From positions 1 to 39,590 of IMG/VR virus record IMGVR_UViG_3300020416_000018: DNA of 39,590 nucleotides; one strand, written 5' to 3'. The notes under the pieces are model-generated. The model saw only the letters and a program-made list of their open reading frames with translations, had not been told where the DNA came from and ran no database searches. Of the stretch, positions 2,060-29,085 are shown piece by piece. Origin of the DNA: a virus. A program made the translations under genes and the position numbers. Within the stretch, counting starts at the first letter, position 1, and the number at the start of each line of letters is the position of its first letter.

Positions 2060-4048
2060 TCATACGCCCATTTGGTAAATCCCTAATTGTCCTACTCCAA
2101 GAGTAGATAAACTAGAAACTTCTGACGTTCCTAAATTTTGTCTTTGTCCACGTACAGTTAAAGAACAAAACACTGTTGTAGATCCTAATTTAGTAATTTC
2201 TGTTACAGGTAATGTAACGTTTTCTACTATACCTCTTACAGTTTCCTCAGGTTTAAACAATGTAAGTACAACTGATTTACCTTCTAAAGCTTTTATTGCT
2301 TGAAATAATTTATGACCAATACCAGGTATTACCTTAGGTCTTTTACCAGGACGTTCTATTCTGTCTGACACGTTTACAGGTATACGTACAATAACGTCCT
2401 CAGGTTCAGGGAAAGCACGATAACTATATGAAAAAACTTGTGGTGAAGTAGTTTGATTGTTGTCTGCCCTAATAATTATTTTAGGTATTAACCACCTGTT
2501 AATTACATTTACTAATGGTTTTTCATCACCAACACCTTCAAGTTCTACTTTAGTTAATGTGCTATAAAGTGGATCATTTGGATTTTCTAAACTGTCTAAA
2601 CTTGTGCTAAATTCTGCTAATACTTCTGCACCTGATGTTACAGTAGATGTATAAATTCTACCACCAACCCATTGTTTAGGTTGTGCTGTAAAAAAATCTG
2701 CAGCAGATAATATTATATAACCGTCTGCTACAAATGTATCTTTTTCTTTTATTAAACCTACTTGATCAATAATAAAAAACAATCTGTCTCGTGATACTGC
2801 AATACTATTGACCTTACCACTTGTTCCTGTAAAATAAATATTTCTTGCGTAACCTAATGTAGGTAAATATATACAATACAAATCAGTTTCAGTTGCAGAT
2901 TCAATTACACCAAAATATATTTCGTCTCTTGTATTGAAAAAAGCTGTTGGTGATTTATCTACTGTAGTTGTTTCATCACCAAATTGTTTTAATAACTGTC
3001 TGTTTTGTATTGTATATACTACACCGTCTGAAGCAACTGTACCTTGATATACTCTACCAATTTTTCCGTTTTGATTAGATGTTTGTGAAGTAGAAAAAAA
3101 CACAATACTATTAGATTCTGTCATGTCTACTATAGATTCGCCTTCAATAAGTGTTTGTCCTGCTAAAACTAAACCTGTAGATTGATCATCTTTAATACTA
3201 TATATATATCCGTCATCACTAGAAGCTAGTATTACAGATCCACCGTCTATAACGCTTGTCCATAAAGATCCTGAAGGTAAATCTATAATTAATGGTGGGC
3301 TAGTTGTACCGTCTAAATTTAATAATTTACCATTTGTTGCAATAGCAAATAAATAATTTTTAACATAAAATAAATTTGTGTAAACATGTGCAGCATGCAA
3401 ACCCATGTAATCTGACCAACCACCTGCTATATTATCTGTATCTAGTTTTCTTACAATGCTGTCTGTACCGTCATTTAAAGATACGTAAAGTAAATGTCCT
3501 TCAAACACCATGCCTGTTACATTAAAAGATGATCCTGTAGAATATGGATCTGTTGTAATCCATGTAACGCCCTGATCTGTACTATAAAAAACATCATGTC
3601 CTTGTGATACCCACAATGTATCATCATGGCCTACTATATTTTGATTAACATTAGTACTAGCACGTTCAGTTATAGATTCAGTTTCATGTAATAAACTTAT
3701 ACTGTATGCGCTTGCTTTGTCATCTGCATTGCTAAATACATCTATACCTTTACTGTCATAAAATCTACGAAAATCGTTTGGTCCAGGATTTCTTTGATGT
3801 GCATAATCTAAACCTGCACCTCCTGAAAAATCTGATCGTGCGTATGATTGACCAAACTCTGCCCTAAACTCCTCAGGTGTTTGCGCTGTGTTAATTTGTT
3901 GCGCAGATAATGGTGCTGTTGTAATACTTAATTCACGTCCAGGTGCAACAGCAAGACGCATAAGTATATCAGTAACACCGTCTGATATTTGTGCTTGATA
4001 ACCAAATGCTAATGGTGTAGCAACGTTAGATGAAGTAGGTAATGGCAT
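2060..4048 (-). CDS. Tail tube/nozzle-like protein with beta-propeller-type repeats
   Basis: 662 aa. The middle (roughly residues 110-480) holds short recurring beta-blade-like units such as VFYSTDQGVTWITTD, HLLYVSLNDGTDSIVRKLD and LFYVKNYLFAIATNGKLLN, the pattern of a propeller. Podovirus nozzle proteins of the T7 gp12 type are built around a large propeller, and the size and place fit: it directly follows a 316-aa adaptor candidate (single-base overlap) and precedes the fibres. An N-terminal section (VATPLAFGYQAQISDG) and a C-terminal section with GIGHKLFQAIKALEGKSV flank the propeller. The role is inferred from architecture and order, with no decisive motif. Alternatives are a propeller-bearing receptor-binding protein or a tail knob protein. 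Confidence 0.6.
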   Translation of the reverse strand: MPLPTSSNVATPLAFGYQAQISDGVTDILMRLAVAPGRELSITTAPLSAQQINTAQTPEEFRAEFGQSYARSDFSGGAGLDYAHQRNPGPNDFRRFYDSKGIDVFSNADDKASAYSISLLHETESITERASTNVNQNIVGHDDTLWVSQGHDVFYSTDQGVTWITTDPYSTGSSFNVTGMVFEGHLLYVSLNDGTDSIVRKLDTDNIAGGWSDYMGLHAAHVYTNLFYVKNYLFAIATNGKLLNLDGTTSPPLIIDLPSGSLWTSVIDGGSVILASSDDGYIYSIKDDQSTGLVLAGQTLIEGESIVDMTESNSIVFFSTSQTSNQNGKIGRVYQGTVASDGVVYTIQNRQLLKQFGDETTTVDKSPTAFFNTRDEIYFGVIESATETDLYCIYLPTLGYARNIYFTGTSGKVNSIAVSRDRLFFIIDQVGLIKEKDTFVADGYIILSAADFFTAQPKQWVGGRIYTSTVTSGAEVLAEFSTSLDSLENPNDPLYSTLTKVELEGVGDEKPLVNVINRWLIPKIIIRADNNQTTSPQVFSYSYRAFPEPEDVIVRIPVNVSDRIERPGKRPKVIPGIGHKLFQAIKALEGKSVVLTLFKPEETVRGIVENVTLPVTEITKLGSTTVFCSLTVRGQRQNLGTSEVSSLSTLGVGQLGIYQMGV

Positions 4049-17035: not shown

Positions 17036-18873
17036 TACGCATATCCACCTTGATTCATATTACGTAGTTGTCTTACACTACCTAACAAATTAGTTATATC
17101 ATTTGCTTGTGCTTGTTGCATATCACTACGATCCTCACGTGCTTCTAAAAATGGCATAGCATAATTAGCTACTGATTCCTCAGGTGTTATAAGTTGTGGC
17201 AAATTATCAAGAGTATCTTGTAAATCATCAAACATACCTCTGTTAGCTAACTGTATAGCTACTTGTTGTTGTTGTTCATATAACTCTGAATTAGCAAAAT
17301 ATTCCTCATCACTTGTTGTAACTACATCACCTAATAATTCCCACTCTGCTCTCGACAATGAACTTGTGTCAAAACCCATTGTGGCCATACCACTTTTAAT
17401 TGCTCTACGTTGATCAAACATAGTAGGTGCAGTATATTTTTTAGGTGTAATAGGTGGTACGATTACAGGTCTTGTTGCTGCTTCCTCTAACACTGTCTCT
17501 ACTGATTTAAGTCTAAGGTTTGCTTCTGTCATTGCACTTTTCATTGCTGCTTGTGAAGCACCTCCCCACCTACCTTTTTCTAATAAATAATCGTTGTAAC
17601 TCATAAATCCACCATTAACCATTTTTAATTGCACAGCTTCTTTTTCATCACTAGACAATGCTATCCATGATGTTTTACCTGAACTTTGTCCATTAATGTG
17701 ATCCATACCACCGTATATATCTTTTGCGTTTTCTACAGTAACTTGTGCTGCTTGTGGTATATCTGCGTTTTTTATACCCATATAATCAATTTCACCATTA
17801 ACCATGTTTTGATTTGCAACTGCTGCAGTTTGTGGTCCAGGTACCATATAACCTAAACCTACACCACCAAATCCTTCACCTGTTATTGTATTAGCTGCAA
17901 AATAATTATCTGCTTGTGCTTTAACAGTATTTAATTCCTCATCTGTATATGAATCATCTACAGGTTGTATGTAAATGTTTTGACCAAAATTTCTAAATAA
18001 TTCATCTTTATCATCTTGTGAAAGTAATTCTGTACGTTCATTTACTTTTTTACCGTCTACATATTCAACTATATAATATTTAGCAGATCCTGCTACTTCT
18101 GTAGATGTAATAATTCTGTTGTCCTCAACAGCACCGTAATAATTTGTATATGATCCTTTGTAATCATGCAGGCCTGTTTCATCAACTAATGTTGTTTGTG
18201 GTTGTGCTAAGATTTGTGGTCTTGGTTTAAAACCAACAGGTCCTATATTTAATGCACCGTAGTTATTAGGAAAAGCACCAAACATTTCTAAATTAACATT
18301 TATACGTCCACCTTTTTCTTTAACGTATTTATCTAATTGATCAGAGTGGTACATCATAGATCCACTACCGTCTTGTGGTCTAACTATTATAGGAAATACA
18401 TCATCATTATTTTGTGCTGTATCTTTAACAGTTGCAAGTTGCCATTGGTAAAATTTTTCATCACCAATTAAACCTGCTCCCATTTCTTGGCCTTTGTATA
18501 TTTTTGTAAATAAATCGTTATCTACATTTACCATTGGACCAGGTACTCCTGCCCACCTTGATTCACCTGTACCTTTTGCAAGTGCTGTATTTATTATGTT
18601 TACTGCTCGTTTGTATCCCATATTAAAGTTTGTTGTATCTTTATTATTTACTGAAGTTATGTACATCATGTACTGCATAGTTCTTGCTATTACTTGATCA
18701 ACAGGTAATGTACTGTATGAACTTATTTCTGCTTTTATTTCCTCCTCAAAACCTTGAAAATACATAGGTTCTGTACGTGTACTTGTGCCTGTAGTTATAT
18801 ATTCTGATGATGTATCATCTATGTATTTTATTATTTCTGCTATAAAATTATCAATTACTTCTTGTTCTGTCAT
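17035..18873 (-). CDS. Putative internal virion/ejection protein (612 aa)
   Basis: Starts 4 nt inside the end of the 1777-aa gene (ATGA type overlap). Mostly helical, with a Tyr/Gly-rich middle (GLHDYKGSYTNYYGAVEDN) and a C-terminal helical part rich in Gln/Ala (ELYEQQQQVAIQLANRG). I do not recognise a family. In podoviruses a run of large proteins after the portal, flanked by a transglycosylase, typically forms the internal core that is ejected into the host envelope; this gene is in the middle of such a run. No signal peptide or clear transmembrane helix. Confidence 0.55.
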   Translation of the reverse strand: MTEQEVIDNFIAEIIKYIDDTSSEYITTGTSTRTEPMYFQGFEEEIKAEISSYSTLPVDQVIARTMQYMMYITSVNNKDTTNFNMGYKRAVNIINTALAKGTGESRWAGVPGPMVNVDNDLFTKIYKGQEMGAGLIGDEKFYQWQLATVKDTAQNNDDVFPIIVRPQDGSGSMMYHSDQLDKYVKEKGGRINVNLEMFGAFPNNYGALNIGPVGFKPRPQILAQPQTTLVDETGLHDYKGSYTNYYGAVEDNRIITSTEVAGSAKYYIVEYVDGKKVNERTELLSQDDKDELFRNFGQNIYIQPVDDSYTDEELNTVKAQADNYFAANTITGEGFGGVGLGYMVPGPQTAAVANQNMVNGEIDYMGIKNADIPQAAQVTVENAKDIYGGMDHINGQSSGKTSWIALSSDEKEAVQLKMVNGGFMSYNDYLLEKGRWGGASQAAMKSAMTEANLRLKSVETVLEEAATRPVIVPPITPKKYTAPTMFDQRRAIKSGMATMGFDTSSLSRAEWELLGDVVTTSDEEYFANSELYEQQQQVAIQLANRGMFDDLQDTLDNLPQLITPEESVANYAMPFLEAREDRSDMQQAQANDITNLLGSVRQLRNMNQGGYA

Positions 18874-24929: not shown

Positions 24930-26692
24930 TATCCCTGTCCTAACAGTAACGATCTTATATCTACACCACCACCTGCACCTTGTGCTGCAGGAGGCGGAAT
25001 TGCACCTTCTTGTGGTTGTCCTAACTGTTGTATTAAAGCTTCCTCCTCAGGAGACATTGCAGGTTCCTCTGCGGTATAAAATTTACTTAATATTTCACTC
25101 ATATCATCAGGTGATTTATATATTTCAACAACTGACATAGTTGCTTTAGGATCACCTTGCTGTGCTTGTGCTAACAAAGTTTCAAACAATACTTTTTCTG
25201 CTTTTTCAGATCTTATACGTTCATTTATCTTTGGTATGTTATCAAGGCCGTCCATGTTTTCTTGTAATGTTTGTGTATCTAAAATACCTGCTTGTAATAA
25301 CTGCAGGCCTGATACTATCTTTGTTGGTTCATCAAAACTTGCCATAACACCATAAACACGTCTAGTAACAAAGTTATTAGCTATATCTGTGTCGGGTGAA
25401 TAGTTTTCTGCAAAACTAGATCCATTTCTATATCCTGCTAATGGTTTTCTTTTTTTACCATAAACAACTTGGTCTAGTTCTAATCGTTTACTATCTAATT
25501 CCTCAATAGCGTCTCTTAACACTAATTGATATTCTTTTACATTTAAATCTACAGATGACATAAGTTCTTGCAAACCTTTACCTGTTGCAAAACTGTTAGG
25601 TGATATACCGTCATCAGTTAATGGATAGTTTGATCCAATACGCATTTGTCGTTCTATACGATCTATTTGTTGAAACATTTGATATGGTAAGTTGCTTGTT
25701 GGTTTACTTACCTGTGAACCAGGTGCTAAGTAGTTTATTGCGTTTCTACCTTTTTTATAATTACCTGATTCTATTTCACCTACAATATTGGTTTCTGTAA
25801 ATACTGCGTCCTCCATAGCAATAACAGATAATACGTTTATCTTTGCCATAGTTGACATAAGGCCTAACACATGATCGTATTGTCCTTGTAATCTATCAAA
25901 ACTATATCTTTTAGCAATCACAAATCTTGGTCCTGATTTAAGTGGATTAGGTATAAAATCTAATATTTGTTTCATATCAGGTAAAAATATGTATGTGCCT
26001 TCCTCGTCATAATATTCTGCTAACTCAACACCGTCTGCTAATCCATTTTCCCATGACCTGCTATATGCGTCTGTATATTTAAATCTTGTATATCCAGGTG
26101 CTTGTCCTGCTTGTTCTACATCTACTTTTGCTTGTGGGTACATAGCTTTAATTGTTTCAACAGGCACTAATCTAATTAAGGCCATTTCTTTTGGTTGTTG
26201 ATCAGGTCCATAATATCCAGGAAAACAATCGTATGGATCTCTTAATTGTGCTAACGGATACTCATTACCATTAGCGTCTTTTTTAGTTGTAATAACCCAT
26301 ACTGCAAATCCATATCCAGGTAACCACCTACTTGCTTGTGGTAATGCTTTATCTAACTTAGCTTGTTTGTCATAGTGATGTACAATGCGTTCTAACTTAG
26401 CTGCTTTTTTTCTTGCCCTATCACTATCTCTATCATTAAGTGGATCTACTTTAATATCAGGCACTCTACCTATTTTTTGTGCTAAGTGTTCTAGGCCTGA
26501 TAAAATTAAATTCGGTGCAGGTAAATCCTCACTAAAATTATTAGATTGTTGTCCTAACAATGCAGCTACACCACGTGGTCCACCATTTAAAATATCACGC
26601 ATACGATCTCTATATTCCCAATGCCCTGAGTGTTCGTGCATACCACGAAGGTCCTCTAATCTTTTACTTAATTCGTCTGCTGTTAACATCAT
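24929..26692 (-). CDS. Portal protein
   Basis: 587 aa, placed directly after the large terminase with a 4-nt overlap. The sequence shows portal features: an N-terminal helical region (YRDRMRDILNGGPRGVAALL), a beta/helical core with LRDPYDCFPGYYGPDQQPKE, the long helices near residues 340-400 (FATGKGLQELMSSVDLNVKE, LVLRDAIEELDSKRLELDQV) typical of the channel-stem region, and a Gln/Pro/Gly-rich C terminus. Portal rings form the DNA entry vertex and dock the terminase. A length near 590 aa is ordinary for podovirus portals. Identification rests on position, length and segment order. Confidence 0.8.
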   Translation of the reverse strand: MMLTADELSKRLEDLRGMHEHSGHWEYRDRMRDILNGGPRGVAALLGQQSNNFSEDLPAPNLILSGLEHLAQKIGRVPDIKVDPLNDRDSDRARKKAAKLERIVHHYDKQAKLDKALPQASRWLPGYGFAVWVITTKKDANGNEYPLAQLRDPYDCFPGYYGPDQQPKEMALIRLVPVETIKAMYPQAKVDVEQAGQAPGYTRFKYTDAYSRSWENGLADGVELAEYYDEEGTYIFLPDMKQILDFIPNPLKSGPRFVIAKRYSFDRLQGQYDHVLGLMSTMAKINVLSVIAMEDAVFTETNIVGEIESGNYKKGRNAINYLAPGSQVSKPTSNLPYQMFQQIDRIERQMRIGSNYPLTDDGISPNSFATGKGLQELMSSVDLNVKEYQLVLRDAIEELDSKRLELDQVVYGKKRKPLAGYRNGSSFAENYSPDTDIANNFVTRRVYGVMASFDEPTKIVSGLQLLQAGILDTQTLQENMDGLDNIPKINERIRSEKAEKVLFETLLAQAQQGDPKATMSVVEIYKSPDDMSEILSKFYTAEEPAMSPEEEALIQQLGQPQEGAIPPPAAQGAGGGVDIRSLLLGQG

Positions 26693-28599
26693 CTATTCCA
26701 AAAAGGTTCGTTCATTGTACTTGCTTGTAATCCTCGATAACTTGGTTCATAATCATATTCCATTTGCGCTTGCAGTGTTTTCTGCAACGTCTTAATTCTT
26801 TTCATTGGGAACCAACTTGCCATTACTAAATCTGTTTTTGTTTTAACAGACCTGCTATTTTTTGCACTTGCTTGACTAAAATAAATTAATTGTTGCCTAA
26901 AGATACTAACTTTACGTTTAGTAATTCCTTCAGCAAACGGTAAATTTATTTTACCTTGTTCGTACAAAGGTACCATTGCAGTAACACCAAACACAGGATC
27001 CCACTTGTTCACATTTGTTTCGTGTCCTTCTATTTTAACACCATGCCTTATAGACCAATCCCTAATTTCCCTATCTTGACGAATTGCTTTTTGAAATCCG
27101 TTTTCCTCTACAATCCAATGATACAGACCATATTGTTCGTTCCACTCTTTCATTAATGCTAATGCTTTAGATACACCACCACCTTGATCGTTACGTAAAT
27201 CTACTAATGACAATGTTCCTAATTTTACGTTATAGGCCCATAGTACAGCAGCTTGATAACCTGTACTAGCAGGATCTAAACCTGCAATTAAACTTATATG
27301 TGGTGGTATGTCTCCTAATTTACGTGATCTATCTAAACAGGAATCTACAGCTTCAGGTGTAAATAATTGCATGCCGTCAGGTATAGCTTTATTTAAATAT
27401 ACCATTTCAAATACATTTCTACCGCTTGTTGTCTCTGCAGCATGTAACTGTTCTAGTAACCATTTGTGTGTTCTTTTGTCAGGCCATAACATGTGCTTAC
27501 TATGGTCTACATCAGGATCCTCTAATGGTACTTCTAAATCATGCGCACGTTCTACTATTGATGACCAAACATTGTTGTCCAGGATATGTGAATAAAGATC
27601 ATCAGGGTGTTGTCTTGATCCAATTACTACCATACCTGTGTGTTCCTCTTTTCTTGATTGGAGTGTGGTTGTCCACCAATTTCTTGTATTCTCTCTAGCA
27701 CTAGGTTGCACTGTTGTTGAGTGATCCTCAATGTCATCTGCGACAATGAGGTCAGCGTCTCTGGAGAGAATCTTGCCACCTTTTCCAACTGCGACCACAG
27801 TTGGAGACTTAATACCTGTAACTGTTCTAGTTGCAACAGTAAATTGACCACTTGACCAACTTTTTCCGCTTCTATTTTCAGGTTTAAAACTTCGTCCTGG
27901 TCCACAAAAATCCTCTATTAATTGTTCATTACCTTCTAGGTGATCTAGCACAGAACTTACTGCGTTCTTAGCTATATCCTCATTTCCACCAACCCACATA
28001 ACTCTTATGTTTGGATTCCTACAAATCACATAAACACAAAAGTGTGTCAACAAGTCTGTTTTACCATGACGTGGCGGACTTAATATCATAAGTCTACCAC
28101 CTGTGTCTATTGATTCAAGTATGGCCTTAATCCACTCTTGTTGAAAACCTGGAGTATCATACGGTTCTCCACGTTCAGTTAAAAAATATGTATCACGAAA
28201 GTTAATAAAATCGTCTACAGACGTTTTAGTCTCTACTTTTTTAAATTGTTGTTGTTTACGTTCTACTTCTAAATCTTTATAGTACGCAGCTAATGATCTT
28301 GATATATTTGCACGTGATGTAGACACTGCGTCTGCTACCTGCTGCTGTGTCATCTCACCTGATATGATTTTATCAAAGTATCCTAGTTCTTTACATATTG
28401 CATAGAACCTACCTCTACGTTCTGATATAGCACCGTCTAAGGTTTTTTCACTTTGAAACTCTGTAGTTTTTTTATTTGCTCTAGTTGCTCTGCGTCTGAT
28501 ACGATTAGAACACCTATCGCTGCAATATTTTTTTCTACCTTCGGGCAATACATTAGTGCAGTCTGAGGCCACACAAATCACTTGTTTCGGTTTAGTCAT
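26689..28599 (-). CDS. terL: Terminase large subunit with N-terminal zinc-ribbon and HTH (fused DNA-recognition head)
   Basis: 636 aa. The ATPase domain has Walker A SPPRHGKT (residues 174-181), a Walker B region DADLIVADDIED, and a coupling segment MVVIGSRQHPDDLY. The C-terminal nuclease starts at SLIAGLDPASTGYQAAVLWA (first catalytic Asp), with further acids at WIVEENGF. Ahead of the ATPase are about 110 extra residues: a four-Cys cluster C9, C14, C26, C30 in the form C-x4-C...KKYCSDRC followed by NRIRRRATR, and then a helix-turn-helix candidate, TQQQVADAVSTSRANISRSL (84-103). No separate small terminase gene is seen nearby. The likely reading is a packaging motor that carries its own DNA-recognition module. 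Its ATG sits at the predicted transcription start. Confidence 0.9.
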   Translation of the reverse strand: MTKPKQVICVASDCTNVLPEGRKKYCSDRCSNRIRRRATRANKKTTEFQSEKTLDGAISERRGRFYAICKELGYFDKIISGEMTQQQVADAVSTSRANISRSLAAYYKDLEVERKQQQFKKVETKTSVDDFINFRDTYFLTERGEPYDTPGFQQEWIKAILESIDTGGRLMILSPPRHGKTDLLTHFCVYVICRNPNIRVMWVGGNEDIAKNAVSSVLDHLEGNEQLIEDFCGPGRSFKPENRSGKSWSSGQFTVATRTVTGIKSPTVVAVGKGGKILSRDADLIVADDIEDHSTTVQPSARENTRNWWTTTLQSRKEEHTGMVVIGSRQHPDDLYSHILDNNVWSSIVERAHDLEVPLEDPDVDHSKHMLWPDKRTHKWLLEQLHAAETTSGRNVFEMVYLNKAIPDGMQLFTPEAVDSCLDRSRKLGDIPPHISLIAGLDPASTGYQAAVLWAYNVKLGTLSLVDLRNDQGGGVSKALALMKEWNEQYGLYHWIVEENGFQKAIRQDREIRDWSIRHGVKIEGHETNVNKWDPVFGVTAMVPLYEQGKINLPFAEGITKRKVSIFRQQLIYFSQASAKNSRSVKTKTDLVMASWFPMKRIKTLQKTLQAQMEYDYEPSYRGLQASTMNEPFWNR

Positions 28600-28703: not shown

Positions 28704-28749
28704 CGGATTAACTAGGCCGTGATAACTAGGGTAAGATCCTATTAATCCG
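28704..28749. other. Intergenic 12-bp hairpin
   Basis: CGGATTAA pairs with TTAATCCG (8 bp); inside, after one bulged C, TAGG pairs with CCTA, closing a 21-nt loop. The loop repeats the stem-side word ACTAGG. It lies between the terL promoter and the tmRNA-like RNA. It could be an RNA structure or a protein-binding site. Its role is unknown. Confidence 0.45.
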
Positions 28750-28847: not shown

Positions 28848-28906
28848 AATAAATAGAACATTTGTACTATTTATTGATCAATAAGTGTACACATTTGTGT
28901 TACACT
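28848..28906 (+). promoter_or_regulatory. Promoter with nested palindromes upstream of the tmRNA-like RNA
   Basis: Extended -10 TGT-TACACT (box 28901-28906) puts the predicted start at 28913, the first base of the RNA acceptor stem. Upstream are an inverted repeat AATAAATAG/CTATTTATT (28848-28856, 28867-28875), a perfect 14-bp palindrome TTATTGATCAATAA (28871-28884, over the -35 region) and a palindrome GTGTACAC (28885-28892). The word ACATTTGT occurs twice, 32 nt apart. Such layering suggests a regulated promoter with operators; the binding protein is unknown. Confidence 0.5.
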
Positions 28907-28912
28907 GTACAC

Positions 28913-29019
28913 GGGGGTAAAGTAGTTTTGACAGTTGGTTTTCCCTTATAAAATTGATACATTTACGGCTCGTTTCAATACAAACCAACTACACGTGGGT
29001 GCAACTCCCACTACCTCCA
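28913..29019 (+). ncRNA. Minimal tmRNA-like RNA (tRNA-like domain plus shortened P2, no tag region)
   Basis: The ends fold as the tRNA-like half of tmRNA. The acceptor stem GGGGGTA (28913-28919) pairs with TACCTCC (29012-29018), 7 of 7 including G3-U70, the alanyl-tRNA synthetase identity pair; discriminator A is 29019, followed by CTA instead of CCA. The T arm GTGGG/CCCAC (28995-28999, 29007-29011) encloses a 7-nt loop TGCAACT. The 5' segment AGTTTTGACAG matches the tmRNA D-loop consensus GGTTTCGACnG, with no D stem. Next comes an 8-bp P2 helix GTTGGTTT/AAACCAAC (28934-28941, 28982-28989). Only 40 nt lie between the P2 strands, folding as a 5-bp hairpin ATTGA/TCAAT, where normal tmRNAs have about 250-300 nt with tag ORF and pseudoknots. 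T-loop position 55 is G, not T. Known tmRNA is charged with alanine and binds SmpB and EF-Tu; function here is inferred. Confidence 0.7.
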
Positions 29020-29085
29020 CTATAAAAAACAGCAGTTACCACCTATATATTTGGGCCTTCATGTTAATTAAACGGGGGTGTCGGG

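Follow-up and report, generated by a model that had tools for sequence, protein, structure and literature searches.

A tmRNA-like RNA without a tag-coding region in a phage genome and its relatives in unrelated phages

We found a tag-less RNA gene in a 39,590-nucleotide (nt) stretch of viral DNA (IMG/VR record IMGVR_UViG_3300020416_000018, positions 1 to 39,590; henceforth the window), which retains the tRNA-like domain (TLD) and P2 helix of transfer-messenger RNA (tmRNA) and features only a 40-nt P2 loop in place of an mRNA-like domain or tag frame (Table 1). Its assignment as a TLD-only tmRNA-like element, first made in an earlier note from the letters alone, is confirmed by our sequence analysis. 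Comparisons across phages document its structure, the evolutionary constraint upon it and its spread, and show that neither a phage SmpB nor a shared tag frame is present in the sets described below. The kind itself is already known from one phage on record; what is new here is the breadth of the class, the selection on its stems and elbow, a variant combining A18 with G55, and the 110-nt form of the window lineage.

The RNA extends over 107 nt up to A73 at position 29019 and is followed by an encoded CTA where CCA is expected. The pieces of the tRNA-like domain are complete and in the correct order, as the earlier note had read them: an acceptor with 7/7 pairs including G3-U70, A73, a T arm with 5/5 pairs and a stemless D segment, the last displaying AG at the positions usually occupied by G18-G19. 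The 40 nt remaining in place of the tag region likewise form the P2 loop in the predicted fold. The P2 helix itself also stands, but it consists of nine contiguous pairs, including in the minimum-energy fold, rather than the eight originally claimed. The tRNA features, i.e., the D stem and anticodon arm, are absent, the fold showing P2 only and ARAGORN making no call. The minimum-energy fold is the tmRNA-like structure (−27 kcal/mol, z −1.8); the folding energy alone is weak evidence, and the case is carried by profile matches and conservation.

Covariance searches, which the earlier note had proposed as checks, link the RNA to the standard tmRNA family. RF00023 matched it with 28.4 bits (E 1.6e-9 in an 821-base search with 4227 families; E 1.8e-11 in a one-model search), in an alignment that spans model positions 1–374 with about 300 internal positions, and with them the pseudoknots, deleted. 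This is a match to the full model, though under its gathering score (28.4 vs 47 bits), since the 300 nt absent here are part of what the model expects; hence, an Rfam scan at the gathering threshold called nothing at the window RNA and ARAGORN called no tRNA, tmRNA or permuted gene there. A custom covariance model (R1), for which five RNAs of unrelated phages served as input, detects the window RNA with 40.4 bits (E 3.8e-6 in 548 kb), and a further model, R2, also matches it.

The window is a phage genome with an SU10-like capsid and a terminase large subunit gene (terL), from which the RNA gene diverges. Among cultured phages it has no near relative; in the phage collection, even the top terminase matches are only 27–30% identical. 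Among 80 terminase relatives fetched from viral contigs, the RNA is present at the same place and divergent from terL in 41/41 of those with a terminase at least 67% identical and enough upstream sequence, and the contigs of eight further relatives at this level that are without it end before the site. The alternative that it is a chance deletion product of one genome, raised by the earlier note, is contradicted by this distribution. The lineage is probably marine, judging from its relatives. The 110-nt form is found in the window, its twin (L003/L005), L002, L004, L006 and L007, and the other relatives carry forms of 80–83 nt. The 110-nt form occurs in three sequence variants whose P2 loops are identical, and the pyrimidine motif TTTTCCC of this loop recurs in variant versions in the shorter relatives. 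In the clade with terminases of about 55% identity, the RNA is found only in L073 and L076, in reversed orientation relative to terL, and a degenerate copy is present in L065.

L002 matches the window RNA at 98.2% identity, against 70.6% in the 200 nt upstream and 62.6% in the 300 nt downstream; lineage-wide, the figures are 94–98% for the RNA and 63–71% for the flanks. The six changes between the window and L006 comprise two compensatory pairs and two changes at unpaired positions: in P2, G25-C74 of the window is A-U in L006/L007, and in the T stem, U84-A98 is C-G. The stems of related phages thus display compensation and not the random drift that the earlier note had named as the mark of a spurious element. 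These observations also bear on the proposal that the element is inactive, either as an attP copy of the host ssrA or as a decaying tmRNA. In its favor, phages do use ssrA for attachment, the integrase of Weiservirinae mycobacteriophages has the 3′ end of a tmRNA next to it, and one relative (L065) possesses a degenerate version. Even so, this proposal is very improbable: attP copies hold one gene end, whereas here both ends are present and paired, the changes are compensatory, and the RNA far exceeds its flanks in identity. Moreover, a tyrosine integrase (PF00589) occurs in only 5/39 records and is found neither in the window nor in its lineage, leaving 34/39 records without one. The L065 copy (3114–3186), beside a related terminase, has A3-U70, no A73 and an altered T loop, and is possibly decaying. 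Separately, the Mycobacterium phages MarkPhew, Validus and Milly (L305–L307) have a tmRNA 3′ end directly upstream of an integrase, an attP candidate lying beside a queuine tRNA-ribosyltransferase gene.

Close relatives also speak to the least probable of the readings that we weighed, namely, that a circularly permuted two-piece tmRNA has been misread as one piece. A second GGGGGTG at 29074–29080 is followed by a D-like stretch, TCGGGTTGACA, with a weak RF04321 match (22.5 bits, E 0.02), and several marine and Stenotrophomonas phages do possess permuted tmRNAs. However, the second GGGGGTG is limited to the window and its twin L003, and is missing in L002, L004, L006 and L007 despite their 110-nt element. 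Further, GGGGGTA pairs 7/7 with the 3′ strand, where the second copy would need a G-U pair, and ARAGORN calls no permuted gene.

Upstream of the RNA lies a −10-like hexamer, TACACT, separated by the six-base spacer GTACAC from G1, which is the seventh base after the box. Relatives show TATACT, TATAAT or TACACT, then 6–8 bases and then GGGGG. This near-fixed distance points to a transcription start at or beside G1, in agreement with the start on G1 predicted in the earlier note. A generic sigma-70 two-hexamer scan upstream of the window RNA found no promoter and no −35 consensus, and it is conservation that argues for the −10 assignment.

The wider class was collected by running an acceptor and T-arm pattern on viral contigs. 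The matches listed included tRNA-Ala genes and many elements of 72–88 nt without an ARAGORN call; at least 47 matches called as tRNA were removed with ARAGORN as ordinary tRNA-Ala. An element above the RF00023 cut-off (57–72 bits) is held by 9 of the 15 contigs tested, and R1 recovers all remaining elements, that of the window included. Across other phage records, the RF00023 gathering score is passed in 27/39, with elements of about 80 nt. A stricter viral pattern, which fixes the D-loop GG and T55, matched 91 stretches of viral contigs against two stretches in 84,980 cellular genomes, one of which (L209) adjoins the phage gene family phrog_3842. The collected loci yield at least 110 distinct sequences other than tRNAs that combine an acceptor, a T arm and P2. 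The 195 loci, a count in which some contigs were fetched twice, fall into 54 groups, defined at the nucleotide level, whose flanks share no detectable nucleotide similarity. Certain candidates were set aside: secondary R2 matches near 40 bits in five contigs, of which the three examined are tRNA-Ala; BLAST matches of cultured phages to the 3′ end, where five of the first six records have permuted coding tmRNAs by ARAGORN and the sixth, Bongo, has an annotated 403-nt standard-order tmRNA; Weiservirinae matches, which proved to be 3′ ends on the integrase side; and PaMx31 and phi14:2, which have ARAGORN tmRNA calls. One phage contig (L122) carries two different TLD-only RNAs, at 1298–1377 and 3208–3291.

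In an alignment of 62 sequences, 15/22 pairs change on both sides, including all seven P2 pairs; 96.7% of the cells are paired, against 49–58% in slid registers, and the covariation score was reached by 0/500 shuffles. The five T-stem pairs form in 62/62 sequences and three of them covary. The alignment was fitted to the structure and the search pattern prescribed the acceptor, whose row therefore has little weight. The pattern left P2 and the three outer T-stem pairs unconstrained. The covariation supports the predicted T stem and P2. In the family alignment, the acceptor pair 7-66, A-U in the window, is G-C in most relatives. As G3-U70 was part of the search patterns, its conservation was judged from unselected cases: all five such elements, found by BLAST and model searches, keep it together with A73 on changed acceptor stems (Table 1), which lends support to the alanine identity claimed from the outset.

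The elbow presents a comparable picture. With the loci chosen by the strict pattern left out, a D-segment GG goes with T55 or C55 in 53 cases and AG (A18) with G55 in 9, with no clear mixed case and two further sequences having neither GG nor AG. The coupling is significant (Fisher p 5e-11), a value inflated by kinship, the independent switches numbering perhaps two or three. The 18-55 pair has thus been exchanged as a unit, in a tertiary swap rather than by decay, which argues for a folded L shape. Hence, G55, taken in the earlier note as a hint of decay, is matched by A18 in every clear case. Nor does the encoded CTA indicate decay: 74/110 elements, the window included, are without an encoded ACCA and would need 3′ processing and CCA addition, ACCA being encoded in the other 36.

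Cultured carriers are the Streptomyces phages pSt2308, LuckySocke and Shaeky and the Stenotrophomonas virus Jojan60 (57–61 bits), whose elements lie in or beside tRNA clusters with no RNA feature annotated there; that of LuckySocke is at about 17977–18057 of OR725497.1. At other loci, it separates the small terminase gene from the gene that follows (L091) or has primase or helicase genes in its vicinity (L118, L182). The proximity to terminase genes in the window lineage and the L091 group would suit a structural element, of RNA or DNA, that serves packaging or replication and has borrowed the fold. This is improbable in light of the other placements, beside primase/helicase genes and in tRNA clusters, the reversed orientation in L073/L076 and the selection falling on charging and elbow features. 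The presence of several elements within phage tRNA clusters could instead indicate a tRNA mimic, charged or uncharged, with another use, e.g., a decoy for tRNA-attacking defenses or toxins, an alanine donor, or a regulator of alanyl-tRNA synthetase (AlaRS) or EF-Tu; lacking an anticodon, it would be uncuttable by anticodon nucleases. We give this only a small chance, as SmpB reads the D segment GGNUUCGAC and the P2 register, both of them tmRNA features that AlaRS or EF-Tu alone would not need.

Across the class, P2 loops measure 18 nt at the median, and those of 59/110 elements are free of stop triplets in all frames; a hidden short tag was rejected, as there is no common frame or stop across P2 loops. 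No ordinary-length tmRNA was found in 39 phage records by the RF00023 search, no SmpB in 40 records, and only one phage-supplied release factor, an ArfB/RF-1-like protein, in 35 records. The lack of a phage SmpB implies that the RNA must use host factors. The 93-kb phage contig G016 (the contig of L140; 70308–70496, minus strand) features an RF-1/ArfB-like protein of 151 amino acids, a TLD-only RNA and a large tRNA array including one called as tRNA-Pyl.

Conventional tmRNA is alanylated through G3-U70, bound by SmpB at the elbow and D loop, and delivered by EF-Tu to ribosomes with an empty A-site. We posit, with somewhat more confidence than doubt, that the TLD-only RNAs act as decoys, i.e., alanylatable RNAs that compete against the host's own tmRNA for SmpB, EF-Tu and stalled ribosomes. 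A phage tmRNA reduced to the tRNA-like domain and P2 would be made as its own short transcript from about G1, trimmed to end at A73, given CCA, charged by AlaRS via G3-U70 and A73, and bound by SmpB and EF-Tu as these bind tmRNA. The charged RNA would be delivered to stalled ribosomes but be unable to supply a reading frame, and host trans-translation, namely, nascent-chain tagging with proteolysis and nonstop mRNA decay, would be lowered during infection. Phages could benefit in that nonstop complexes would arise as host mRNA decays during infection, and their tagging would cost the phage proteins and drain resources. A TLD-type RNA is reported to strongly inhibit endogenous tmRNA in E. coli, perhaps by SmpB titration (PMC4131195; PMC11915505, citing Mao et al. 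2009).

Several points weigh against a decoy role. That reported inhibition concerns a different, artificially expressed TLD (PMC4131195, PMC11915505); that the RNA is transcribed, charged and bound by its protein partners and affects trans-translation is our inference; the 74 forms without encoded ACCA depend on CCA addition; several phages carry the RNA in tRNA clusters or operons and not behind its own early promoter, a placement that does not single out an anti-host role; and conserved apical loop motifs are left unexplained. The wider proposition, that tag-less mini-tmRNAs are a widespread selected phage RNA class (at least 54 groups) that inhibits or rewires host trans-translation, bears an apical AARNCC...GG hairpin and A18-G55 elbow as signatures, and is missed by annotation tools, strikes us as evenly poised between acceptance and doubt. 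The apical P2-loop motif AARNCC..CAC..GGA, forming a small hairpin, is seen in 54/110 elements (e.g., L118 5913–5994, L303 1187–1267) and is common to Streptomyces and metagenomic phages, the window lineage featuring TTNTYCC instead.

Selection on the charging determinants and elbow would also suit an alanyl-RNA that, with host SmpB, takes the nascent chain onto its single alanine and frees the ribosome untagged. Tag-less mitochondrial tmRNAs are supposed to rescue ribosomes without a tag. Mitochondrial and some plastid tmRNAs devoid of a tag frame are listed as co-occurring with SmpB (PMC11915505). Yet such a role is unlikely for the phage RNAs, which have no stop or resume codon to recruit release factors; their hosts normally possess a full tmRNA already, and the comparable TLD is reported as an inhibitor of tmRNA. 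If the RNAs do act as decoys that block trans-translation, ribosome rescue would be a common phage target.

The earlier note had known of no described phage RNA of this kind, but the tmRNA of mycobacteriophage DS6A (tmID 11587; Phage__Mycobacterium.9) is recorded as 'TLD only' in PMC4131195. Likened by description, DS6A and the window RNA share having little beyond the tRNA-like domain, with the halves in standard order. DS6A is a single phage case, whereas the window RNA, which features a P2 loop of 40 nt, A18/G55 and no CCA, is found in every evaluable member of a probably marine lineage. Of the 97,179 sequences in the 2025 tmRNA database, just nine unique ones in standard order have no tag frame (PMC11915505), and a literature search, excluding preprints and most subscription papers, returned no report of a wider phage TLD-only class. 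Standard tmRNA (RF00023, ssrA) has the acceptor, G3-U70, A73, stemless D segment, P2 and T arm arranged as in the window RNA, with order and register alike; unlike it, the class lacks the mRNA-like domain, tag, resume codon and pseudoknots and measures 75–110 rather than 300–400 nt. The permuted tmRNAs of the Pelagibacter phages Mosig and Melnitz (RF04321) are likewise phage tmRNAs from marine phages, but these keep the tag and have the 3′ half first, whereas the window RNA has the 5′ half first and no tag. The tag-less tmRNAs of jakobid and oomycete mitochondria and some plastids (RF02544; about 65 nt in Mallomonadaceae) are organellar reductions, and most of the mitochondrial genes are permuted. 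Finally, tRNA-Ala shares the acceptor, the T arm and the identity set by G3-U70 and A73, but the window RNA has no D stem or anticodon arm and features P2 instead, and ARAGORN separates the two sets.

Table 1. Features of the window RNA and its surroundings, and acceptor stems of the unselected elements
Feature	Position	Strand	Sequence or description	Basis
TLD-only tmRNA-like RNA gene	28913..29022	+		RF00023 match, models R1 and R2, conservation in relatives
−10-like hexamer	28901..28906	+	TACACT	Read from sequence; similar boxes in relatives
Acceptor 5′ strand	28913..28919	+	GGGGGTA	Pairs 7/7 with 29012–29018; G3-U70 present
Stemless D segment	28920..28932	+	AAGTAGTTTTGAC	tmRNA register per RF00023 alignment
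P2 5′ strand	28933..28941	+	AGTTGGTTT	9 pairs in predicted fold
P2 loop	28942..28981	+	40 nt, replacing tag-coding and pseudoknot region	Predicted fold
P2 3′ strand	28982..28990	+	AAACCAACT	Predicted fold and relatives
T arm	28995..29011	+	GTGGG-TGCAACT-CCCAC, with G55	5/5 pairs, strands 28995–28999 and 29007–29011
Acceptor 3′ strand and discriminator A73	29012..29019	+	TACCTCC + A	Read from sequence; CTCCAC invariant in family alignment
Terminase large subunit (terL), conserved neighbor, divergent	26689..28599	−		phrog_38, E 3e-66
L122 second element			Acceptor GGGTGTG/CACATCC	Unselected, G3-U70 kept
L302			Acceptor GGGGCTG/CAGCTCC	Unselected, G3-U70 kept
L303			Acceptor GGGTCTG/CAGATCC	Unselected, G3-U70 kept
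L304			Acceptor GGGGTAG/CTACTCC	Unselected, G3-U70 kept
L310			Acceptor GGGGCAT/ATGCTCC	Unselected, G3-U70 kept

These RNAs recur, mostly unannotated, in many unrelated phages from marine, soil and other sources, among them phages that infect the culturable Streptomyces and Stenotrophomonas. Their spread suggests a common interference with, or minimal use of, host ribosome rescue by a class that ARAGORN misses. Laboratory phage–host pairs make the question of trans-translation testable at once, and the RNAs offer natural minimal substrates for studying the recognition of tmRNA by SmpB, AlaRS and EF-Tu. Among the minor observations, two contigs with TLD-only RNAs also contain type II hammerhead ribozymes (L099 9705–9768 and L102 974–1038, both on the minus strand). 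An inverted repeat, GGATTAA...TTAATCC, lies between terL and the RNA at 28705–28748 of the window and is well conserved in L002, L003 and L004. Immediately 3′ of the RNA, the shorter-form relatives L009–L043 display a conserved block, ATTACCACATAAACATTGACGTATTCATATACATT, which differs in the window.
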